Shown piece after piece: positions 4,173 to 56,241 of a stretch of 64,000 nucleotides of DNA. Both the position numbers and the translations under genes were made by a program. The notes under the pieces were generated by a model. It was not told where the DNA came from, made no database searches, and worked only from the letters and a program-made list of their open reading frames with translations. Each line of letters opens with the position of its first letter. Within the stretch, counting starts at the first letter, position 1. The stretch is from Rhizobium rhizoryzae (lineage in GTDB: Bacteria; Pseudomonadota; Alphaproteobacteria; Rhizobiales; Rhizobiaceae): the NCBI RefSeq assembly GCF_011046895.1, contig NZ_CP049250.1, forward strand, positions 434,001 to 498,000, given 5' to 3'.

Positions 4173-4217
4173 ATCAATTCCTCGTTCTGCCTGTGGTAGC
4201 AACACTAGATGACGGGC

Positions 4218-4232
4218 CTTGCGTGAAGCTGG
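4218..4232 (-). promoter_or_regulatory. Flagellar motif copy before flgE
   Basis: On the minus strand this reads CCAGCTTCACGCAAG, 46 bases before the flgE ATG and after the rem terminator. It matches 12 of the 14 positions of the consensus derived from the other copies. It is placed where it could control flgE but not rem. Confidence 0.55.
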
Positions 4233-4395: not shown

Positions 4396-5067
4396 TCAGC
4401 TCCAGTCGATGCAATAGCCAAGGAAACGCTTGCTATCGATCGGGTCGAAGCCGAGCTTCTTGCGCAGCTTCTTGCGCAGCTTGCTGATGTGGCTTTCGAC
4501 GACGTTCTCTTCGACTTCCTCGTCGAAGATACCGTAGATGGCGTTGAAGATCTGGGTCTTCGACACGCGACGTCCGCGGTTTGCGACTAGATATTCGAGA
4601 ATGCGACGCTCACGCCGCGGCAGGGGGAAGATCTCGCCCTGGATTTCCGGATCGCGACCATCGTCGAAAACGCGGATCGGTCCGATATCGGTGTAGTTCG
4701 TCAATGCCTTCACACGACGACGGATTGCCGCCGCACGTGCCAGGATTTCCCGGGGATGAACCGGCTTGCGCACGACATCGTCGACGCCGCTGTCGAACAA
4801 TGCCAGCGTTGCTTCCAGCGACGGCTGATCACTCACAGCAATCACTGGTGCTGCGGTACGATCCCGGATTGCACGCGGCAGTTCCAGCGCATGCTCGGTC
4901 TGACCGATCAGAAACGCTTCAACCGCTGCGATATCCGTATCGGCCGCAGTCGATACCCACTCGCCAAACTCTCTGGGATCAAACCCTGTTGAGGGTACTC
5001 CCTCACGCCCAAACAATGAGGTGTAACCCTCTTTCACGAGCTCACGCTCATCAACCACTACGATCAT
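4396..5067 (-). CDS. rem: OmpR-type motility regulator Rem (FtcR orthologue)
   Basis: This 223-residue protein has an N-terminal receiver-like domain (residues 1-115) and a C-terminal winged-helix DNA-binding domain (about 125-223, [18 protein letters not shown] ... [13 protein letters not shown]). Rem of Sinorhizobium activates motility genes in exponential phase under VisNR control, and the Brucella orthologue FtcR acts on fliF. The receiver is atypical: the third beta strand, where the phosphorylated Asp should be, reads AAVEAFLIG, although the Lys of the RKP motif is kept. Rem is therefore probably active without phosphorylation. It is a single-gene unit with a terminator and a 283-base upstream region. 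Confidence 0.92.
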
Positions 5068-8598: not shown

Positions 8599-9902
8599 CA
8601 GGCTTTGCCGTCCTCAAGCAGGATTTCGATGCGCCGGTTCTGATCAGCCAGCGGGTTATTGGGAACCTGAAGGCGCCGATCCGCATAGCCGGAGATCTGC
8701 TTCACCCGGTCTTCGGCAAGCCCGCCCTTGGTCAGCATGAAATAGGCGCTGTGGGCGCGCTGGGAGGAAAGCCGCCAGTTGTCGTTTTCGCCCGACTTGA
8801 ACGGACGACCGTCCGTATGTCCACGAATGATGACGCTTCCCTTCCGATCCTTCAAAATTGCACCGATCTTCTCCATGGCCAGCACCAGTTCCTTGCGAGG
8901 AACGGCTGAACCGACATTGAACATTGGCGTATCAAGCTGGTCGGAAATCGTGATCAGAAGCCCACCTTCAGCCGGCGTCACGATCAAACCTTCCGCCAGC
9001 TTGCCCGAAATGCCTGCAATCTGGCTTTCGATCTGCTGCTTCAGTTCATCAGCCTTGCGTGCCTCGGCTGCAGCCGCAGCAGCCGCTGCCGCCGCATCCG
9101 CCTGCACCGTTGCAGGGTCGGGTCTGGGTCGCGGGAGAGCGACGGATGCCAGTTGCATATCGGCGGCCGGGGCACCGGCCTGCGCAACGTTTGCCGGGTT
9201 CTTCGGCGGTTCTCCGCGCGTTTGCGTCGCAGAAGGCGGCGTCGGCGGCAGCATTTCCGGCATGGTTTCGTTGGAAGGATTGACCGGCTTGACTTCTGCC
9301 GGCGCCTTGGCCTGTCCGTCAGCACGGGTGACTTCAACCTGCTTGGTCCAGAAGTCGGGATCGAACGGATCGCGATAGGCTTCGCCGCCGTCTGCGCCCG
9401 TTGCGGGGCCCGATGAACTCGCGCCGCCCTCACCCTTTGCGCTGACATTGGCCTGCTGACCGACTTCCTGAGCGATTTCCGCCAGGACGGAATAGGGATT
9501 CTGGAAGAAGTCCGCTTCCGAGAAGTTGGCTTCTTCACCCGAGGCCTGCGTCATATCCTCGCCAGTTGCGGCGGCAGCCCCGACCTTGTCGGCATCGGCC
9601 TTGACCTTGGAGCGCTCCTTGCTCTCCTCGCCTTCAGCGGCATCGACCGGCTTTTCCAGGCCCTTCTTTGCCGGGGTCTGGTCCGAAAGCTTGATCGGGT
9701 TGAAATAGCTGGCGACAGATGCCGTCGTCTTTTCGTTCGCGGCGTTAACCAGCCACATCACGAGGAAAAACGCCATCATCGCTGTCATGAAGTCGGCATA
9801 GGCGATCTTCCAGGCACCACCGTGATGTCCGTCGTGCCCACCGCCATGCTTCTTGACGATGATGATTTCGTTCTTGCCGTGATGATGATTCTGTTCGCTC
9901 AT
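8598..9902 (-). CDS. motB: Flagellar stator protein MotB
   Basis: The 434-residue protein has one membrane helix (residues 31-53) carrying the proton-binding Asp (D37 in [10 protein letters not shown]). A long periplasmic linker rich in Ala, Pro and Glu includes an alanine run. The C-terminal OmpA-like peptidoglycan-binding domain (about 300-430) has [12 protein letters not shown] and NWRLSSQRA. At 434 residues it is longer than enteric MotB (about 308); the extra linker is typical of rhizobia, where MotC binds it. Its partner motA is about 14 kb away on the other strand. The start overlaps the fliH-like gene by four bases (ATGA). Confidence 0.95.
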
Positions 9903-10531
9903 GCGAGCACTTTCTTCAGGCTGCCAGCCCAGGCAGAAAGCCGGGTGACCAGGACAGCCTCATTGATATCGACGGACAGATCGAGATCTGATGTCTCGAT
10001 GTGCCGCATGTCCGGGGCATTCTCGCCCAAGGCTTTGGTGAACATTTCAAACAGGTTCTGACTGCCGTGGACCGTCAGTTTCGCGACGTCTTCGCTTTTC
10101 AGGGCCTCAATGACCTGTTGCGCAAGTTCAGCGACCATAGCTTGCGCAACGGCCTCTTCCATCACTGGCGCAAGAACCGCAGTCACCGCCGTCTCCAGGG
10201 CGACGGCAGCCTCCTCGCGCATGCGCTCGAGGCTTTCGACAAGACGTTCAGCGGTCTGTCTTTCCATTTCATGACGTAGTTCAATCAGAGCAGCCTCATG
10301 CTCGGCCACAAGCCGCTCGCGTTCCGCTTCCCAGCGCGCATCGCTGGCCGCCTCGCCTTCGGCGCGCCCTTCTGCAAATGCAGCTGCCCGTTCCGCCTCC
10401 AGATCGACAGACGGTTCTGGCGCTGGGGGCTCGAAATGGAAATCATTGTCGAGCTCAAATGCGACGACCGGAACCGGCGCCGCGGGAGGCGTGGAAAAGT
10501 CCTTCAGATATCGCGTCAGGGATGCCGTCAT
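9899..10531 (-). CDS. FliH-like flagellar export protein
   Basis: I chose the ATG at 10531 (210 residues) because GGAGAGG precedes it. The protein has an acidic, Pro-rich N-terminus, then [17 protein letters not shown] (the A-x3-G/E-G repeat seen in FliH-family stators), a long coiled coil, and a C-terminal domain with [11 protein letters not shown] and [21 protein letters not shown]. FliH holds the FliI ATPase in an inhibited dimer at the export gate. The gene heads motB-motC-fliK, with an ATGA overlap into motB. The repeat pattern, coiled coil and context support a FliH role, but sequence alone does not prove it. Confidence 0.6.
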
Positions 10532-10702
10532 CGTCCCTCTCCTGCACTGCGAAAGGCCGGACCTTCGCATGGTGAAGCGCTCGAAGGCACAAGTCGTCGA
10601 AAGCTAGCCACCATGATTTTCGCCATACCCTACTGCATGCCAAACATGTCCCGACAAATTTATCGGATCAGCGTGAATTTTTTGGAACTTTAGGAATTCA
10701 AA

Positions 10703-10716
10703 CTTGCGCGAAGGTG
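10703..10716 (-). promoter_or_regulatory. Flagellar motif copy before the fliH-like gene
   Basis: The minus strand reads CACCTTCGCGCAAG, 172 bases before the start of the fliH-like gene that opens the motB-motC-fliK run. It lies in the 245-base gap after the third flagellin gene. Two inner positions differ from the consensus. Confidence 0.45.
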
Positions 10717-10776
10717 AAGATAGGGGCCGCCATTCCGACGAGCAGCGACCCCTTGTATCGTTTCAACGATTTGTGA

Positions 10777-11812: not shown

Positions 11813-11932
11813 CAGACGTTAGCCGACCAAGTTTTCGGCAGACGTTCGGGCGTATGTGAATGGCCAGCCCGATCTGCTCCGAACAGAGCATTCAGCAGAC
11901 TCGCATCCCGAGGTCGATAAAGCCGCATTTGT

Positions 11933-11946
11933 CTTGTGCGAGGCTG
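11933..11946 (-). promoter_or_regulatory. Flagellar motif copy before the third flagellin gene
   Basis: The minus strand reads CAGCCTCGCACAAG. All 14 bases are identical to the copy before flgF. It lies 188 bases before the flagellin start, upstream of the promoter-like block, and downstream of the flaB terminator. Confidence 0.55.
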
Positions 11947-12010
11947 ATCTTTTTCCATAGACAACAGGTTGGGGAAGAAGCCGAACCGTCCGTATCAGGA
12001 ATCCTGAACG

Positions 12011-20908: not shown

Positions 20909-20949
20909 AGGCTTCTCTCCATTTTCTAATTGAAGCCTAGGCTGATATC

Positions 20950-20963
20950 CTTGCGTCAGACTT
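20950..20963 (-). promoter_or_regulatory. Flagellar motif copy before flgB
   Basis: The minus strand reads AAGTCTGACGCAAG, 42 bases before the flgB ATG. Its first bases overlap the stop codon of the preceding gene, so it would be an internal control site inside the long operon. The core CTGACGCAAG equals the fliN copy. Confidence 0.45.
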
Positions 20964-21537
20964 ACGGACTGCCCGAGGCCTGATCGTTTAACACCTCACC
21001 GGTGGAGGTTATGATCACCCAGCGTCCGCCGCGCTGCTCGATTGTTGCAAGACGGCTGTTATCTGGAAGGATCGAGCCAACACGCACCATGTACATGCCC
21101 TTGCTGTCTTCGATCAGCGCCCGACCATTGGCAACATGCATGAGGCGGAACGTATTCTTGCCGGGCAGAGGCTGCATGAGCCCCGCCCCTTCATTCCCAT
21201 CGGTCTTGTCAGGCGAGGCAACCGTCGCTGTCGTCAGATTGTCGGTTGGATCCAGCGGGTCCTTCGGCGTGTCGGAGGGCGTGTTATCGACCATGGCAAG
21301 CGGCGATACGCTGAAGACGTTCCGGGCCGGCGTGTCTGGCAGGTCGCGCGTGTGATCCATTGTTTCGACACGGATGCCGAACTTGTCCTCGTTGAAGAAA
21401 ACGTACCAGGGGAAGAGCGCTGATGCGGTTGCCAGAAGGATTCCGGCACCAGCCAGCATTCGATCGCTGGAAGATCCAGATCGCCGACGGGTGCGCGAAG
21501 GCTTGATCTCTTCGTCGTTGTCCTGCTGCATGTTCAA
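20962..21537 (-). CDS. Single-span membrane protein of the flagellar operon, unknown function
   Basis: I do not recognise a family. The 191-residue protein has a charged, Arg/Ser-rich cytoplasmic N-terminus (1-27), one membrane segment (about 28-48, MLAGAGILLATASALFPWYVFF), a Pro/Asp/Thr-rich periplasmic linker, and a compact C-terminal region (about 128-185) whose pattern NGRALIEDSKGMYMVRVGSILPDNSRLATIEQ looks like a small beta-rich domain of the kind seen in type II secretion C proteins. It overlaps fliI by four bases and precedes flgB, where many bacteria have fliJ, but it does not look like FliJ. Confidence 0.8.
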   Translation of the reverse strand: MNMQQDNDEEIKPSRTRRRSGSSSDRMLAGAGILLATASALFPWYVFFNEDKFGIRVETMDHTRDLPDTPARNVFSVSPLAMVDNTPSDTPKDPLDPTDNLTTATVASPDKTDGNEGAGLMQPLPGKNTFRLMHVANGRALIEDSKGMYMVRVGSILPDNSRLATIEQRGGRWVIITSTGEVLNDQASGSP

Positions 21538-22940: not shown

Positions 22941-23675
22941 TTAGCGCGAGCCGCCGAGGGTCTTGATGGCTTCGCTGAAATTGGTTTCCGTGTCGCGCAT
23001 CAGCGAAGAAATGGCTTCGAAGCTGCGATTGACCTGAATGAGTTCGGTCATCTGGCCGATGCCGTTGACGTTCGATTGCTCGAGATAGCCCTGGACAACG
23101 CTGATATCGACGCGATCGACAACCGGCTGCGGCGCCTGCGTGGGAATTACGCCGCCATTCTCAAAGCGCAGATATCCCTTGGATATGTCCGTGCTAAAGA
23201 CCCCGAGCGTGGCAACAGGCCTGTCGTTCTGCGTCACGCGACCATCTGGACCGATGACCGGCGGACCGGCGGTGCGGTCCAGCTGGATGGGTGCGCCACC
23301 GGCATCAAGCACCGGATAGCCCATGTTGGAAACGAGCTCGCCCGTTTCCTTCAGCGTGAAGCGTCCATCTTTCGTCAGAACCTGACCCTGCGGGGTGTCG
23401 ATCGCAAACCAGGCATCGCCCTTGATCGCAACATCCAGCGGGTTGCCCGTATGATCGAAGCCGCCGCTACGCGTGGACAGATAGTCATTGCCCTGGCTGA
23501 CAAAGGCGACCTTCGCGTTGAGTTCATTGCGTGTCTTGCTGAGTACTTCGTCGAACTTCACTTCGGTCGCTCGAAAGCCAACCGTGTTCATGTTCGCCAT
23601 ATTATCGGCGATCGTGTTCAAGCGGCGCTCAAGCGCGATCTGCGAAGAAATACCGACATACAAACCGGACTGCAT
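22941..23675 (-). CDS. flgF: Proximal rod protein FlgF
   Basis: The 244-residue rod subunit starts at the ATG at 23675, giving MQSGLYVGISSQIALERRLNTIADNMANMNTVGFRA. An upstream in-frame start would add 28 residues that do not belong to the family. Other features are FDHTGNPLDVAIKGDAWFAIDTPQGQVLTKDGRFTL and the C-terminal MTELIQVNRSFEAISSLMRDTETNFSEAIKTLGGSR. It opens the long minus-strand operon and diverges from motA across a 239-base control region. Confidence 0.93.
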   Translation of the reverse strand: MQSGLYVGISSQIALERRLNTIADNMANMNTVGFRATEVKFDEVLSKTRNELNAKVAFVSQGNDYLSTRSGGFDHTGNPLDVAIKGDAWFAIDTPQGQVLTKDGRFTLKETGELVSNMGYPVLDAGGAPIQLDRTAGPPVIGPDGRVTQNDRPVATLGVFSTDISKGYLRFENGGVIPTQAPQPVVDRVDISVVQGYLEQSNVNGIGQMTELIQVNRSFEAISSLMRDTETNFSEAIKTLGGSR

Positions 23676-23780
23676 TCGTCTCTGGCTCCGTGATGGTTCA
23701 GATGTTTCCGACACGCTGGTGGGGTCGAATGTGCGGGCTCCACAGAGAACCCTGATCATGCCAATCCATAGGCAGAGAGA

Positions 23781-23794
23781 CTTGTGCGAGGCTG
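23781..23794 (-). promoter_or_regulatory. Flagellar motif copy before flgF
   Basis: The minus strand reads CAGCCTCGCACAAG, 106 bases before the flgF ATG. It lies in the divergent flgF/motA control region, 57 bases from the motA copy, which faces the other way. Each copy points to its own gene. Confidence 0.6.
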
Positions 23795-23851
23795 TTCCAC
23801 TGCGAAACCATGCCGCTGCAATTTTTCGATTTACTTAAACAGCTATAAACC

Positions 23852-23865
23852 CAGCCTCACGCAAG
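23852..23865 (+). promoter_or_regulatory. Flagellar motif copy before motA
   Basis: The plus strand reads CAGCCTCACGCAAG, 50 bases before the motA ATG. It is a full match to the derived consensus and has the same orientation toward its gene as the copies on the minus strand. Confidence 0.6.
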
Positions 23866-23914
23866 CCAGCGCCAGTAATTCAGGAACCTGATACGAACAT
23901 GGTGCAGGTGTACG

Positions 23915-24793
23915 ATGACAATCATAATCGGATTTATAGTCACATTGGGCTGCGTTCTCGGCGGCTACATGGCCATGGGCGGCCATCTGGACGTGCTTGT
24001 CCAGCCCTTCGAGCTCGTCATCATCGGCGGTGCCGGTGTCGGCAGTTTCATCATGGCCAACCCGATGAAGGTTGTGAAGGATTCGGGCAAGGCGATCGGA
24101 GAGGCTTTCAAGTATGCGGTTCCGAAGGAGCGCAACTACCTCGATGTTCTGGGTGTTCTCTATTCTCTCATGCGCGACCTTCGCACCAAGTCACGTAACG
24201 AGATCGAAGCGCACATCGACAATCCGGAGGAATCCTCGATCTTCCAGACCGCTCCGACGGTCCTGAAGAACAAGGAACTGACTTCCTTCATCTGTGACTA
24301 TGTTCGCCTCATCATCATCGGCAATGCCCGAAGCCATGAAATTGAAGCGCTGATGGACGAGGAAATCGAAACCATCCTGCACGACAAGATGAAGCCTTAC
24401 AATTCGCTGACGACCATGGGTGACGCATTTCCGGCGATCGGTATCGTCGCCGCCGTTCTCGGGGTTATCAAGGCCATGGGCAAGATCAACGAATCGCCGG
24501 AGGTTCTCGGCGGCCTGATCGGTGCGGCGCTCGTCGGCACCATGCTTGGCATCTTCCTGTCCTATTGCATGGTCGCGCCGCTCTGCAACCAGATCAAGAT
24601 CGTGCGTTCCAAGCAGCATCGCCTCTACATCGTCGTGAAGCAGACCCTGATTGCCTACATGAACGGCTCGGTTCCGCAGGTCGCGCTTGAGTATGGTCGC
24701 AAGACGATCTCCGGCTATGAGCGTCCGTCGATTGACGCCGTCGAGCAGGAAATGATGAATCCGGGTGGCGGTGGCGAAAGCAAGGCGGCCTGA
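23915..24793 (+). CDS. motA: Flagellar stator protein MotA
   Basis: The 292-residue protein has four membrane segments (about 2-20, 30-52, 168-190 and 200-222) and a large cytoplasmic loop that contacts FliG. Typical blocks are [19 protein letters not shown] and [25 protein letters not shown], the latter carrying the conserved Pro of the third helix. It pairs with MotB to form the proton channel of the stator. It starts the plus-strand operon motA-fliM-fliN-fliG-flhB and has GCAGGTG ahead of its ATG. Confidence 0.96.
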
Positions 24794-25746: not shown

Positions 25747-25773
25747 CCCGCCAGGTTCGTAATTTAGCATGGG

Positions 25774-25787
25774 CAGCCTGACGCAAG
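25774..25787 (+). promoter_or_regulatory. Flagellar motif copy before fliN
   Basis: The plus strand reads CAGCCTGACGCAAG, 23 bases before the fliN ATG, within the 63-base fliM-fliN gap. The distance is shorter than for the other copies, so here it might overlap an internal promoter or the ribosome-binding region. Confidence 0.5.
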
Positions 25788-25809
25788 TTTCAACAGGAAT
25801 AATCAATTC

Positions 25810-26388
25810 ATGGCTACGAATAAGACACCTTTCAATCCGGACGATATGTTCGCCCCTTCCAGCGACGAAAAGGAACTGGATCAGGCGATCGACGATCTGC
25901 GCGGCGTGCTGAAAGCTGACGAAACCGGCAGCCTCGGTGACGATTTCGGCATGTCTGCATCGGCCTCCGAATCTCCGTTCGGTGCCGATCTTGGATCGGA
26001 TACTGCCTTTGGTGGCTCCGATTTCGGCGGCGGTTCTGATTTCGGTGGTGCCTCGCTCGGAGGTGACTTCGGTGGAGGTGCGTCCTTCGGTTCGTCGGCG
26101 TCATCATCCATGCCGGAGCCAGGGAGCGCGCTCAATTCGAACCTCGACCTGATCATGGATATTCCGATTACGGTCGAAATCGTCCTGGGCACAAGCAAGA
26201 TGCAAGTTTCGGGGCTTATGGGTCTTGAGGAAGGCGCCATTATCGCGCTGGACAAGAAGATCGGAGAACCGGTCGAAATCACCGTCAATGGCCGCAGGAT
26301 TGCCAAGGGTGAGATCACGGTGCTCGAAAATGACGACACACGGTTCGGCGTCAAGCTAACGGAAGTGTTGAGTACAAACAAAGTCTGA
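25810..26388 (+). CDS. fliN: Flagellar motor switch protein FliN
   Basis: The 192-residue protein has a long Gly/Ser/Asp/Phe-rich N-terminal extension (residues 1-110, repeated FGG/DFGG patterns) and a C-terminal SpoA domain (about 115-190: [59 protein letters not shown]). FliN forms the base of the C ring with FliM and binds FliH. The extension makes it longer than enteric FliN (137), as is usual in rhizobia. It lies between fliM and fliG. Confidence 0.95.
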
Positions 26389-27563: not shown

Positions 27564-28640
27564 TTGTCTGAGGATAAAGAAAGTAAAACAGAAAGCCCGA
27601 CCGAGAAAAAACTTCGTGACGCGGCTGAAAAAGGTAACGTTCCGTTTTCGAAAGAGGTGACGCTCTTCGCGTCATCTCTTGCGTTTTATTGTTACCTCAT
27701 CTTCTTCCTGCCGGGCCGGACACTCGACCTCGGGGAAACGCTCAAGGACATCATCGCACAGCCGGATCAGTGGCAGTTGGAAAACGCCTCGGATATCGTG
27801 TCGATCGGTGTGCATATCGGCTGGGCAACGGCTTCTTTCCTGCTGCCTGCCATGCTGATGTTCAGCCTGTTCGGTCTGGCTTCCTCTTTTGCACAGAACC
27901 TGCCCTCCGCCGTTCTCGAACGCGTACGTCCGCAGATTTCCCGCGTGTCTCCCATGAAAGGGCTGGAGCGTATCTTCAGCGTACCTGGCCTGGTGGAATT
28001 CGGGAAATCGCTCTTCAAGATCGTTGTCGTCAGCATCTGCATGTTCTTTGCGATGCGTGGTGACTTCATGCATTCGCTGGATGCCATGTTCGCCGACCCG
28101 AAAGTGGTGCCGGACATGCTCTATGTGGCCGCAACGAAAATGATGGTGGTGATTCTGCTGTCGACCGGTGTGCTTGCGGCAGCTGACTTTTTCTGGACGC
28201 GGCATCACTGGTACAGCGAACTGAAGATGTCGCAGCAGGAAATCAAGGACGAGCACAAGCAGTCGCAGGGTGACCCGATGGTCAAGGGACGCCAGCGTGC
28301 CGTCATGCGCAGCCGCGCCCGCCAGCGCATGATCAACAATGTCCCGCGCGCAACCCTCGTGATTGCAAACCCGACCCACTATGCCGTGGCCCTGCGCTAT
28401 GTGCGCGAAGAAAGCGATGCGCCGGTGGTTGTTGCCAAGGGCAGTGACCTGATCGCATTGAAAATTCGCGAAATCGCAGAGCAGAATAACATTCCTGTTT
28501 TTGAGGATCCGCCGCTCGCTCGCTCCATGTTTGCGCAAGTCTCGGTGGATAGTGTCATTCCACCAGCCTTTTACAAGGCAGTGGCCGAACTGATTCATCG
28601 AGTCTACGCCTCGCGATCGCCTCAAAAACGGATACGCTGA
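27564..28640 (+). CDS. flhB: Flagellar export switch protein FlhB
   Basis: The 358-residue protein has four membrane segments (about 33-53, 86-110, 143-165 and 187-208) and a cytoplasmic domain with the self-cleavage site NPTH at residues 269-272, the canonical position. FlhB switches export specificity from hook to filament subunits after a FliK signal. The start is a TTG at 27564, giving [39 protein letters not shown] precedes it and no in-frame ATG would keep the conserved N-terminus. The gene lies about 100 bases after fliG. Confidence 0.95.
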
Positions 28641-28645
28641 ACGCC

Positions 28646-29083
28646 ATGAAAAAATGCAACTATTCGCTTGAACGTGAAAAAATCCTGGCTCAGGCGATCA
28701 GCCCAGTTGCAACAGAATTAAGAATGCTGGATGCGGCCGACCTGATTTCGCTGCTGCGCCTCGAATGCTATGGCAGCATTGCCGACCTGGTTTCCTCGGC
28801 TGCAGAACTGTATTTCCATCCAGGCACTGTAAGTTTCGGTTCCGGTGGCGACTACAAGCTGGAATGGGACGGTCGACCGGAAGTCATCCTGGATCTTGAG
28901 ATCAAGCCGCAGGGCCTTTCCGTCTATGCAAGACTGATGCTGACGGACAAGACCGCCGGCATAGAGATCGACCATATTTCCTTCCAGAACCCCTCTGACG
29001 ACCCGGAGGAAAATACGCGCTTCCTTTCGCGCAGCCTGCATGCGGCGCGGTTCATCAGAACGCCAACCGCGCTGGCCGGCTGA
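28646..29083 (+). CDS. Conserved-looking protein after flhB, unknown function
   Basis: I do not recognise this 145-residue protein. It has no signal or membrane segment. The N-terminal half is helical (ATELRMLDAADLISLLRLECYGSIADLVSSAAELYF), and the middle looks beta-rich (GSGGDYKLEWDGRPEVILDLEIKPQGLSVYARLMLTDKTAGIEIDHISFQ). It starts five bases after the flhB stop, so it belongs to the motA operon and is likely made together with motor proteins. A flagellar or motor role is an inference from position only. Confidence 0.75.
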   Translation: MKKCNYSLEREKILAQAISPVATELRMLDAADLISLLRLECYGSIADLVSSAAELYFHPGTVSFGSGGDYKLEWDGRPEVILDLEIKPQGLSVYARLMLTDKTAGIEIDHISFQNPSDDPEENTRFLSRSLHAARFIRTPTALAG

Positions 29084-32749: not shown

Positions 32750-32813
32750 TCTGTTCCCGCACCGTCTAATAGGTCATGTAGGCCTTTGCCCTCACACAAC
32801 CTACGCGGCGAAG

Positions 32814-32827
32814 CTTGTGCGAGCGTT
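32814..32827 (-). promoter_or_regulatory. Flagellar motif copy before fliF
   Basis: The minus strand reads AACGCTCGCACAAG, 65 bases before the fliF ATG. The CTCGCACAAG core equals the flgF copy, while the first four positions differ. In Brucella the Rem orthologue FtcR binds the fliF upstream region, which makes this copy a useful test case. Confidence 0.5.
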
Positions 32828-32865
32828 TCGCAAAGCCCCATCGAGACGGTGGAGACAGTTATAAA

Positions 32866-39687: not shown

Positions 39688-41307
39688 TCAACCCGTCAAC
39701 GCAACTGCCTGAGACGACAGGAACGCCATCATTCCACCGGACGAAATCTCGGTGTCTTCGATCGTTGCGTCCTTCGTCGGCATAGTTTTTCTGGCTTCCC
39801 AGATGCGGCTCTTGTCGGAACTGCGTTCAATCCGGAACTCCCGCACTGTCCGTCCCAGTTCCACGATAACCGTCTTGAGTTCATCGCCTTCCTGGCCCAA
39901 AGCGCGCGCACGCTCGGCACTGCGGGCCAGACGCTGATCCAGCACCTCGACATCGAGGCTCATCTTCTCAAGCGAGCGGACCTGTTCGTCTGTCGCACGC
40001 GCAAGGCCGGACACCGTTTCGTTGATGCTGGAAACCTGTTGCACGAGACCACCAATCGCATTCTGCGTCTGGTGGACCATCTTCACACCTGCCTCGACCT
40101 GCGACTTGGTACCGCTGACGAGTTGCTTGATTTCCCGGGCCGCATCAGCGGAACGCTGTGCGAGAGCCCGAACTTCCTGAGCAACGACGGCGAAACCCCG
40201 GCCCGAATCCCCGGCGCGTGCCGCTTCTATGCCGGCATTCAGGGCAAGAAGGTTCGTCTGGAACGCAATCTCATCGATCACGCCAATGATTTGCCCGATC
40301 TTTTCTGCCGACTGCTCGATATCGGACATGGCATTGATCGCACGTCCGACAACCTCACCACTTTCTTCGGCCGCGCGGCGAGCGTCGGACGTCGCCTTTT
40401 CCGCTACTGCCGACTCAGCGGCGCTGTCACGCACCTTCTGTGTCAGATGCGAGATTTCCTGGAAGGCAGCAGAAAGCGCCTCAGCCTGCGCGTCAACCTC
40501 CGTCGCGATCTCAAGCGTCTGGCCAGCAATTGATCCGGCAAGCGTTTCGGCTCGCAGCAGCTTGTCGGAGGCCGATTTGAGTGAGGCGCACATGGCGTCC
40601 TGCGCCTGATCGAGCAACGAGGAAAGCTCGGCATAGACTTCCGGACGTTCGTCGCTGACCGCAACGGTCAGATCTTTATTCGCAAGCGCTGCTGCCACGG
40701 GGCCGAACAGGTCGTTTGCCTGTGCCTGGTCACGTTCTCTCTGGGTTGCCAGAGAACGCTGGTGCTTCTGCCGGATTTCGTTGATCCGAAGCGACACCGC
40801 AATCTCGACATCGACCAGCACAAGGCGGATGACCGCCTGGATGGCGTCGGTCACTTCCTTCTCGCGCTTGCGAGCGGCAGGAAGCAGAGATCTGCCGCCG
40901 ATCTGTTCGAGGAGACCGCCAATCAGGGCCTCGAGCATGACTGCATGGCCAGCGATATGCCAGCGCGGATCAAGCCCCATCCGTCCTTCGGCGTCGGAGA
41001 GCACCTTCACGCGCTCCGCATACAGCGCGTCGAAGCGTGCATCCGTCAGAACGCTCCAGTGGGAAGCCTGCAGGTCATGCAATCTTTCCAGCTGCAGATC
41101 GCTCTCGAAATGACGCATCGCATCCGGTGATGATTGCAGTCTGTGCAGGAAATCGCGAAGGCCTTCCTTCAGACATCCTTCCAGTGTGGGGCGGAACCGG
41201 CGCAAAAGCTCGCAGCTTTCTGCATCCAGGCCGGCAAAGGCAAGCCGTTCGCGCAGGCTGCCCGCCTGTGCCTTTCTTGCCTGATCCGTTGCCGTTTCGT
41301 GAGCCAA
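39688..41307 (-). CDS. Soluble globin-coupled chemoreceptor (IcpA-like)
   Basis: The 539-residue protein has no membrane segment. Residues 15-185 form a protoglobin-like sensor ([18 protein letters not shown] is the family's E/F-helix signature), followed by a HAMP-like linker and a methyl-accepting signalling domain with the hairpin tip [41 protein letters not shown] (about 346-390). The position of the heme-binding proximal His (H-x3-GL) is Glu107 here, so heme binding is doubtful. There is no C-terminal NWETF-like tether. It is the first gene of the che operon, as icpA is in Sinorhizobium. Confidence 0.9.
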
Positions 41308-42162
41308 AGCCCGTCCCCAACACTGCTGTCCCTCAAGGATCAGCGAAAATCGTTACCGAACCCTCTGCATCCAGAGGTTAAAAACATTATCTGCCCCTCT
41401 TGAGGGAGGAATGCAGGCTTGCGCGTTCCATCCGATCACTGATTTTCACGGGCGGCGAACCGGTAAGGCTCGCGGCTGTTGCCAGACGATCCTGATGAAA
41501 ATCACTGCTTGATGAAAAGCATACCGGACCAAAACCGGTACGTCGGCGCGGCATCATGCCAGGAAGGAGCGGGCATAGGCCCATCACACTTCGCCTTGTA
41601 GAACTAGTTGTATGGTTAATTCCTTGCCTGAAGGTTAATAGCTTCGAGCCTTCAAAGCTTTTCCAAAGTGCTGAAATAGCCCACGCCACGAGGCTTTAGC
41701 GCCAAGTCAATGAAGAGGCGAAATAAAAACCGTTACGCCTTACCGAATATGATACTTTTCCGAGGTTCCTCGCGAGTACCGTGCAATGGGCTTTGACGAC
41801 AATCACTGATCATCCCTCGGATTCGGGCGGCGTTGATTTACATATATTGGAACAGTTTACTCGTATTTTAACTGATTAATTCATACAAATGCGTAGCCGG
41901 GGCGGATGGGGGCTACGGGATGGGGGCATGTCTTCGTACAATCTCAATCTAGGCCTGATAGATCGGTCCTGGCACAAAGGCTGCGCGCGCTGTCCAGCGC
42001 CGCACTTTTGACCAAGTTGGCGCGAGAGGGATACCGTTAACAAACTCTTATTTGCACATTGTTGAGGTTTCGGTCGGGAAGCCTAGGTTTCCTTGTCTGG
42101 ACCGCCATCCGTGTGTGACGCGCGCGACCCTTGACCAAGATAACGCATTGCCAGGTACATTG
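41308..42162. other. Long gap between the che operon and lpiA
   Basis: These 855 bases carry the divergent control regions of the che operon (left) and the lpiA-acvB operon (right). I see no gene. Signals noticed: a partial flagellar-motif copy on the minus strand (41418-41429), a 9-base inverted repeat TGATTTTCA/TGAAAATCA (41440-41448 and 41496-41504), a short inverted repeat TACCGG/CCGGTA (41522-41540), and an AT-rich stretch at 41830-41890. Confidence 0.55.
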
Positions 42163-48491: not shown

Positions 48492-49589
48492 CTACACGTA
48501 CCAGATTCCATCTTTGATATCCGCGCTGACATTGGCGACGTTTTCGACGCTCTCGGCGAAATCCGCCAGAACGGACGCCTTGGTCGTACCGGCTTGCAAC
48601 TGGCCAATCCAATAGGCCATGCCAGCCGCTTCGCCTGCCCGATGCAACACGTTCTGATAAAGCTTTGCGACATAATCAGTGTTTGAAACGGAACTGCCGT
48701 AAACTGACATGAATTCCGCCGAGGCGAGAAACCCGGTTGCCGCATCCTTCAATGTCTTGCCGCCGTCCAGCAGTTGGATCCAATAACCTAGACCAATCAT
48801 ATCCGGCTTTCGATCAAAGGCCGCCTGATAAAGCCGATAGGCCTGTCCGGCATTGCCTGCCGTATCAAGCGCAAGAGTGCCATCCGCGAAGGAGAGACGC
48901 TCAACGGCGATCAACTGGTCACGCCCGGTGCCGCTGGCGCTCAGCATCCATGCGCCGCCATCCTGAACAAGAGACACATCAGCACGTTTCAGTGCATAAA
49001 CGACCGTATCGACGCCTGCTCCACCATTGAAGACATCATTGCCACCACCGGCAACAAAGCGGTTTGCCTTGTCGAGGTTATCGACGAAACTATCTGGCGT
49101 GTCGTATCCGGCGAACTGTCGAAGATAATCCACCAGTGTCGTCCCGTTTGCATCGCTGGAGGTAACAACGCCCCCGGACTTGACGAAATCGATAAGCTTT
49201 TGCGTGCCCAGAAGATGGGTTGCGGCAATCATTCCGGTTTTGGTGAGCGCAATACCGTTCAACGTCTGACCGGCGTAGAACTCCAGATCAAAATAGCGCA
49301 CACGGCTCCAGAGCAGCGTGAACCAGGCGCCTGCCGCCTTGTCCTGCTCTGCGGGACTGCGTAGGAACTCAGCCAGCGAGCCGATGCCGTTCTTGCCGAG
49401 GAAACCTTTGCTGTAGATGTTATCGTAGACGTTGGAATCGCGGGGCGCGTAACCCAGATCGATCAGCGCGGCTTCGCCGAATTGATAAGCACCTGCATAT
49501 CCAAAACGGTTGACGACGGAATAGTCGCCACCGGATTCCCGTGCGCGCAAAGCCGCAAAAAAATCGCTGTAGGAGCCTCGACTTGCCAT
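48492..49589 (-). CDS. Secreted-type fusion: lysozyme-like, RTX-like and DUF4214 domains
   Basis: The 365-residue protein has no signal peptide. Residues 1-75 look like a lysozyme or transglycosylase-type N-terminus (FFAALRARESGGDYSVVNRFGYAGAYQFGEAALIDLGY, with Glu18 a candidate acid). Residues 180-200 carry one RTX-like nonapeptide (GGGNDVFNGGAGVDTVVY), which would bind calcium. Residues 245-355 hold two DUF4214 copies (QAAFDRKPDMIGLGYWIQLLDGG and QNVLHRAGEAAGMAYWIGQLQAG). Such proteins leave the cell by type I secretion. Its role, perhaps in wall or matrix contact, is inferred. Confidence 0.82.
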   Translation of the reverse strand: MASRGSYSDFFAALRARESGGDYSVVNRFGYAGAYQFGEAALIDLGYAPRDSNVYDNIYSKGFLGKNGIGSLAEFLRSPAEQDKAAGAWFTLLWSRVRYFDLEFYAGQTLNGIALTKTGMIAATHLLGTQKLIDFVKSGGVVTSSDANGTTLVDYLRQFAGYDTPDSFVDNLDKANRFVAGGGNDVFNGGAGVDTVVYALKRADVSLVQDGGAWMLSASGTGRDQLIAVERLSFADGTLALDTAGNAGQAYRLYQAAFDRKPDMIGLGYWIQLLDGGKTLKDAATGFLASAEFMSVYGSSVSNTDYVAKLYQNVLHRAGEAAGMAYWIGQLQAGTTKASVLADFAESVENVANVSADIKDGIWYV

Positions 49590-56026: not shown

Positions 56027-56241
56027 TTCTACCAAGACAAACTCAATTAGTTTGCCGAAACGGGTGATGGTTAATCATTGGCTGCTTTCTGTGTTCAGAA
56101 ATTAGCAAAGCATCAAGGTTCTCAGACAATACTCGGCTGAATACGCGATCTGATTCGGATTGCACCTGAACAGGTTAAGTCTCAGCCTGTCGCCGGGAGC
56201 TCATTCGGGTCGATCATGGATCATTCCAAGGGGTTGACGTC

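Follow-up and report, generated by a model that had tools for sequence, protein, structure and literature searches.

The window analysed here, a 64,000-nucleotide stretch of the Rhizobium rhizoryzae genome (G000:C4:434001-498000), carries a cluster of flagellar and chemotaxis genes. The products named in it are FlgE, FlgB, FlgF, FliN, FliF, the flagellins, FlgL, FlgK, MotB, MotC, FliI, VisR and VisN, together with FliP, FliG, FlhB, CheD, a protoglobin methyl-accepting chemotaxis protein (MCP) and CheW; FliM matches below its cut-off, and FlhA, FliR and FlgD are encoded to the left of the window. The names motA and fliK, presumably correct, follow gene order. The gene that we take to be rem, a name supported by gene order, encodes an OmpR/PhoB-type regulator of 223 residues. 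The product of orf223 (9899-10570), labelled fliH-like in the first-pass annotation, has no NCBIfam or Pfam match. The gene at 48492-49589 encodes a DUF4214 protein that also matches RTX repeats, though below cut-off.

The first-pass annotation had described a 14-base motif, scored here as CAGCCTSRCRCAAG, at ten places in this cluster. All ten stretches exist. Exact matches lie at 11933-11946 and 23781-23794 on the minus strand and at 23852-23865 and 25774-25787 on the plus strand, and these four are the only exact copies in the 4.98 Mb genome. The copy at 4218-4231 (minus strand) has one mismatch, those at 10703-10716 and 20950-20963 have two, those at 32814-32827 and 56183-56196 have three, and the copy before flaB has four. 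With up to three mismatches allowed, the 14-mer alone occurs 46 times in the window against an expected mean of 44.6, which is chance level; thus, although the motif is real, its length does not suffice for it to be used by itself. Across the whole genome the one-mismatch form matches 33 times, compared with nine times for the pattern read backwards, and six of the 33 matches fall in the flagellar cluster.

To define the element more fully, we took 20 relatives from the same family and mapped the proteins of the window onto a 40-kb stretch of each; the relatives were picked from 100 genomes with MotA that included the R. rhizoryzae genome. Upstream of six genes, sites were accepted if they contained CAAG, had at most four mismatches to the first-pass consensus and lay within a per-gene distance range, chosen after a first look at the sites and their spacings. 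This yielded 104 sites, 88 of which come from the relatives and do not belong to fliN. The sites from the 20 relatives give the consensus mAGnYTCRCRC-AAGnYTSRnnn-n2-TAGnnT; the 14 bases noticed at first are only part of this larger element, which is real at most of the listed places.

The geometry of the element is nearly invariant. A -10-like TA stands exactly 10 bases after CAAG in 86/88 sites, and a TA at this place was not among the conditions for site selection. The two exceptions (fliF in genome G069 and orf223 in G033) are probably wrong sites and were removed before matrix building. Within the box, two half-sites repeat every 11 bp in direct orientation. Lag 11 is alone among the lags tried: the half-site model refits its own element only there (+1.7 bits; the runner-up, lag 10, reaches -8.6), and column permutation gives a p value of 0.0026 in a test that the CAAG condition helps somewhat. 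The column frequencies of the 88 class II sites contain no TTAA element.

A matrix was built from 86 sites of the relatives, originally found with the first-pass consensus; the R. rhizoryzae genome was excluded. It picks out seven strong sites in the window (Table 1), all scoring above 17.5, the maximum reached in 20 first-order random sequences of window length, which have a background of 0.25 hits with a score above 10 per 64 kb. Six of the seven had been listed before; the seventh, inside the 3' end of flhB, had not, and neither had a box before flhA at G000:C4:432587-432618, 1.4 kb to the left of the window, with a score of 33.1. In 13/20 relatives a similar site lies at the left end of the stretch.

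Table 1. Box elements and the proposed regulator gene in the window (positions count from the first base of the window)
Feature	Position	Strand	Box and -10 sequence	Matrix score	Leave-one-gene-out, upstream regions with box
rem, OmpR/PhoB-type regulator, 223 aa, proposed box binder	4396..5067	-			
Box and -10 before flgE	4201..4232	-	CAGCTTCACGCAAG-N10-TAGTGT	32.1	19/21
Box and -10 before orf223-motB-motC-fliK	10686..10717	-	CACCTTCGCGCAAG-N10-TAAAGT	29.7	16/17
Exact 14-mer upstream of third flagellin, doubtful	11916..11947	-	no TA at -10 place	8.0	
Box and -10 before flgB	20933..20964	-	AAGTCTGACGCAAG-N10-TAGGCT	24.0	13/20
Box and -10 before flgF, divergent from motA	23764..23795	-	CAGCCTCGCACAAG-N10-TATGGA	28.2	
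Box and -10 before motA	23851..23882	+	CAGCCTCACGCAAG-N10-TAATTC	20.2	19/21
Box-like element before fliN	25773..25804	+	AATAAT at -10 place	9.2	
Box and -10 inside flhB 3' end, before 145-aa gene	28525..28556	+		23.4	19/21
Box and -10 before fliF	32797..32828	-	AACGCTCGCACAAG-N10-TAGGTT	29.1	17/17
Hybrid element upstream of MCP gene	41606..41637	-	box-like AACCTTCAGGCAAG overlaps TTAACCAT	6.3	

The remaining four listed copies fare differently. The weaker copies before flaB and cheW score no higher than 6, the listing limit, and have to be struck off. The scores at fliN and at 11933 lie inside the random range of the matrix. The 11933 copy is an exact 14-mer, but it lacks TA at the -10 place and its position is not conserved: none of the 19 upstream regions of flaC best matches has a box, and an exact copy of the 14-mer stands in locus L195 and none in L194, from Rhizobium lemnae, to which R. 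rhizoryzae is close (92.8% identity over 13 kb). This copy should probably be struck off as well. More broadly, none of 57 upstream regions of best matches to flaA, flaB and flaC (19 each, several queries falling on the same gene) has a box, so that flagellin promoters were rejected as members of the set.

In leave-one-gene-out searches the box was recovered upstream of flgE, orf223-motB, flgB, motA and fliF in 84/96 cases, compared with 1/317 upstream of 17 other genes of the cluster; flgF (4/21), fliN (0/18) and the gene after flhB were counted in neither group. The box keeps one orientation towards the next gene, as had been proposed: flgE, orf223, flgB and fliF give 0/75 antisense hits and the control genes 2/317, and the 8/21 antisense hits at motA are found where the divergent gene has its own box. 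In a wider set, the best 80 of 477 Rem loci by Rem similarity (Rhizobium, Sinorhizobium, Ensifer, Shinella, Agrobacterium and others), the flgE box is present in 80/80 and a box within the wide expected range of orf223 also in 80/80; at least four of these loci are probably shared with the training genomes, and the set is not wholly independent.

It is hardly credible, then, that visual inspection had merely selected matches that owe their existence to chance or base composition. Such an origin would fit the three-mismatch counts, the copies at flaB and cheW and perhaps the one at 11933. Where the seven strong sites are concerned, it is contradicted by the conservation of place, direction and spacing in relatives and by the extended pattern, which matches 24 times in the whole genome and 11 times when read backwards.

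A whole-genome model search of R. rhizoryzae, which scored 150/1524 candidates and in which absences therefore carry little weight, returned 12 rows at E values up to 10; seven are in the flagellar cluster, and the best four all lie there. Thirty of the 33 one-mismatch matches were made into loci, 24 of them outside the cluster, and only one of the 24 (L023, 20.8) has a score of at least 15 where the 14-mer matches; L012 reaches 16.0 away from its 14-mer match. Candidate boxes outside the cluster lie at G000:C4:2217129-2217154, 2779411-2779436 (L118) and 3297347-3297372 (L105, 21.1). The nearest genes downstream of such candidates encode proteins with no Pfam match above cut-off and, at L108, which coincides with L023, a lytic transglycosylase-like protein.

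In the window flgF is directly divergent from motA (23675-23915), and the gap holds the two opposed copies that had been reported, both exact (23781-23794 on the minus strand and 23852-23865 on the plus strand). The first residue matched is number 29 in the open frame of FlgF and number 32 in that of FlgE; therefore, the starts are placed near 23675 and 4172, and the box spacings become 105 and 45 bp. The flgF box is less widely recovered, with just 4/21 upstream regions passing the leave-one-gene-out cut-off. Several relatives have the divergent box at a distance of 0.5-1.2 kb from the start of flgF; there seems to be a further gene between flgF and motA in these genomes, with the box before that gene. 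A DNA hairpin across the divergent gap was considered and rejected, as folding is no better than in shuffled sequences (z -0.60).

The fliN site combines an exact 14-mer and a nearly constant position with a poor fit to the matrix. It stands 22 bases before the start codon in 10/11 aligned genomes, R. rhizoryzae included, and 16 bases before it in the other; it deviates from the matrix, and 0/18 fliN upstream regions pass the matrix cut-off. If transcription started about 7 bases after the -10 hexamer, the start codon at 25810 would be at +1, and a leaderless transcript is therefore predicted; 171 leaderless starts are reported among the mapped starts of Sinorhizobium meliloti (PMC3616915). 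The short distance at fliN, together with the shared orientation of motif and gene, could also suggest that the motif works in the mRNA leader as a binding site for a small RNA or a protein. We regard this as very improbable: distances from the box to the start codon range from 22 to more than 200 bases, and a -10-like element at a fixed distance would place the box upstream of the transcript.

The box in flhB precedes a conserved gene (28646-29083) whose product, of 145 residues, has no Pfam match. We compared the codons that the box occupies with general usage. In the 18 of 21 related genomes that fitted the search (three were left out), CAA encodes Gln in 18/18, AGT encodes Ser in 13/14 and GAT encodes Asp in 18/18, compared with 2.0, 0.5 and 7.0 expected from usage; these choices are unusual for these genomes. 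The amino acids at the box are likewise conserved.

Which protein might read the box is suggested by the distribution of Rem. The rem product has a clear DNA-binding domain (Trans_reg_C, PF00486, E 3.4e-16) and a weak receiver match below cut-off. In an alignment to regX3, Glu50 of Rem stands at the position of the phospho-acceptor Asp; among 48 Rem orthologues this position is Glu in 34, Gln in seven, Arg in four and Gly in two, with no Asp among the residues listed. Rem has been called 'aspartate-less' (PMC9812332), and it is described as an activator of class II genes (PMC9812332, PMC6180460). Rem orthologues (E <1e-40) are found in 47/199 genomes of the order, five further genomes with matches near 1e-20 being counted as Rem-negative. 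In a class-wide draw of 190 genomes, Rem had a match in R. rhizoryzae only, which makes this draw uninformative. Across the 199 genomes, Rem and the closer FliF type tend to co-occur, and several genomes have two flagellar systems.

The box model matches 26/47 Rem-positive and 4/152 Rem-negative genomes of the order (Fisher p 8e-16, computed without correction for descent). The four Rem-negative genomes with a match (G355, G417, G446 and G463) have only distant Rem relatives, with best E values of 6e-15 to 5e-19. In the other 21/47 Rem-positive genomes the model found no box, which may reflect strict filters, diverged sites or real absence; order-wide absences are weak evidence because 35 candidates were scored per genome. 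Of the 48 hits in Rem-positive genomes, 39 are no more than 60 kb away from Rem or the Rem-type FliF, and the other nine are more distant or fall on a different contig; outside the family the near hits are 21/29. Seven genomes with two FliF types allow an internal comparison. All 13 stretches of Rem-type cluster contain a hit with a matrix score above 10 (41 hits in total), and none of the seven 20-kb stretches round the other FliF does; the seven were chosen, and others with two or more FliF matches, among them the Rem-positive G000, G029 and G494, were left out. The box is not merely a neighbour of rem: in one relative (G097) the 40 kb analysed contain no Rem, and a Rem 89% identical is encoded on a contig separate from that of the flagellar cluster with its boxes (C5 and C7). 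No box precedes rem itself in 19 upstream regions searched with autoregulation in mind.

Taken together, these observations make it very probable that Rem binds a box of which the motif forms the conserved core, and thereby switches on the operons that the boxes face. The first-pass annotation had named Rem as the natural candidate, and that proposal stands as a reading of sequence: the 11-bp direct repeat, the co-occurrence with Rem and the Rem-type cluster and the persistence of the box in genomes with no match to VisN all point to it. Two DNA-binding domains of Rem would bind head to tail, to half-sites of about mAGnYTCRC and AAGnYTSRC, and with the 11-bp offset both domains would sit on the same side of the DNA helix. 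The box would cover the -35 place, with the TAGnnT -10 element following at its fixed distance, and Rem would replace the -35 element and recruit RNA polymerase with the housekeeping sigma factor, in the manner of PhoB at pho boxes. Each box would thereby drive the operon it faces, namely those of flhA, flgE, orf223-motB, flgB, flgF, motA, fliF and the gene after flhB, and probably that of fliN as well. The sequence of the element, its 11-bp period, its spacing, orientation and conservation and its association with Rem genomes and the Rem-type cluster are observed; binding by Rem, replacement of the -35 element, the sigma factor and the start sites are what we infer from them.

The proposed arrangement has a known counterpart. 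PhoB replaces the -35 element at pho box promoters. Direct repeats of 11 nt are described for PhoB (PMC4415409) and for ArcA (PMC3798270), and PhoB is also described as requiring a strict distance between its sites and the core promoter (PMC10294691). The element found here shares with the pho box two head-to-tail 11-nt direct repeats and a fixed distance to the core promoter; it differs in half-site sequence and in its flagellar operon targets, and the presumed binder, unlike PhoB, has no phospho-acceptor Asp. The box would thus be a well-defined addition to the known OmpR/PhoB-type kind. A fixed geometry between box and TAGnnT would equally be expected if the two formed a two-part promoter recognized by an alternative sigma factor rather than an activator site. 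We consider this improbable, as sigma promoters are not expected to contain an 11-bp direct repeat, TAGnnT is close to the common -10 element and the box tracks a winged-helix regulator.

We give equally little weight to VisN/VisR or CtrA, which also belong to the flagellar cascade, as the protein that binds the box. The window contains the genes for VisN and VisR, and both VisNR and CtrA are reported to act on rhizobial flagellar genes (PMC9812332, PMC4433202). VisN matches (E <1e-20), however, occur in 6/199 genomes, all in the family and three of them at 34-35% identity, and outside the family 20 genomes combine Rem and a model hit but show no match to VisN; in 14 of these a hit is no more than 60 kb away from Rem or its FliF, and six have far hits only. 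As for CtrA, its site is TTAA-N7-TTAA or TTAACCAT, and the class II boxes, unlike CtrA sites, have no TTAA element. Further, S. meliloti CtrA is reported to bind the flaABC and some mcp promoters directly and to control flgBCDH and fliEFIL, the basal-body genes, only indirectly (PMC4433202). That study proposed rem as the go-between, with rem itself reported as neither bound nor changed (PMC4433202). These data fit a division of labour between Rem boxes and CtrA sites; they do not fit a simple chain from CtrA to Rem.

The Rem reading also agrees with what is known of the VisNR-Rem cascade of S. meliloti and Agrobacterium, in which class II basal-body genes are likewise the targets; in loci that carry the names Sinorhizobium and Ensifer the regulator shows 86-88% identity, and what is added here is an element defined and traced into genomes with no VisN match. 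We take FtcR, the flagellar regulator of Brucella melitensis, to be the orthologue of Rem. FtcR is reported to act on fliF, and its published ChIP motif is TGTGGGCA (PMC9456535). Despite the common role of flagellar regulator, that motif is unlike the box and was rejected as its equivalent, being absent from all 115 upstream regions of six genes, rem included.

The first-pass annotation knew of no published consensus of this form, and none was found in the open-access literature covered. The 2013 S. meliloti start-site paper gives three de novo motifs, none of box form in the part covered (PMC3616915), and the box form is likewise absent from the covered parts of PMC9456535, PMC9812332, PMC7617929, PMC8639532, PMC9731437, PMC4433202, PMC10469942, PMC12632262, PMC6180460 and PMC4696191. 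An earlier box consensus may nevertheless be in print.

A different arrangement, also missing from the first-pass list, is seen where the chemotaxis genes begin. The MCP gene at 39688-41307, whose product has an N-terminal protoglobin domain, comes first among them, and upstream of it a box-like sequence overlaps TTAACCAT (Table 1); this overlap is seen before the chemotaxis operon only. The hybrid element aligned in 11/11 genomes, that is, R. rhizoryzae and the 10/20 relatives that passed a filter on MCP similarity and start, with CAAG in ten and CAAC in one. 'Motif 2' of S. meliloti, which has no assigned regulator, is TTTGTTAACCAT (PMC3616915). Among 64 flagellin upstream regions from 19 genomes (R. 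rhizoryzae and relatives), TTAACCAT occurs in 21, eight of which contain the full TTTGTTAACCAT; CATGATGC occurs in 19 and ATGTCCCT in 32. Thus TTAACCAT, unlike the class II box, is found upstream of some flagellin genes as well as ahead of the chemotaxis operon. Elements like GGCATGATGCC and CCGGTATG also precede the chemotaxis operon. These recurrent upstream elements are possibly class III promoter and leader elements.

A bolder reading, possible but short of probable, would join these sites in one history: a single Rem promoter of fixed geometry, older than VisNR, that drives basal-body and motor genes order-wide, that was written into flhB, where it froze rare codons, and that was fused to a CtrA-type half-site at the chemotaxis operon. 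If the hybrid element is what this reading makes it, the chemotaxis genes would need both Rem and the cell-cycle regulator.

If Rem does bind the box, the step from Rem to the class II genes would become a readable DNA code, and regulons would be predictable from sequence in many soil and symbiotic bacteria. The question raised by the S. meliloti CtrA study, which regulator acts on the basal-body genes and where it binds, would become testable site by site, and an aspartate-less response regulator would gain a likely binding site with PhoB-like geometry.
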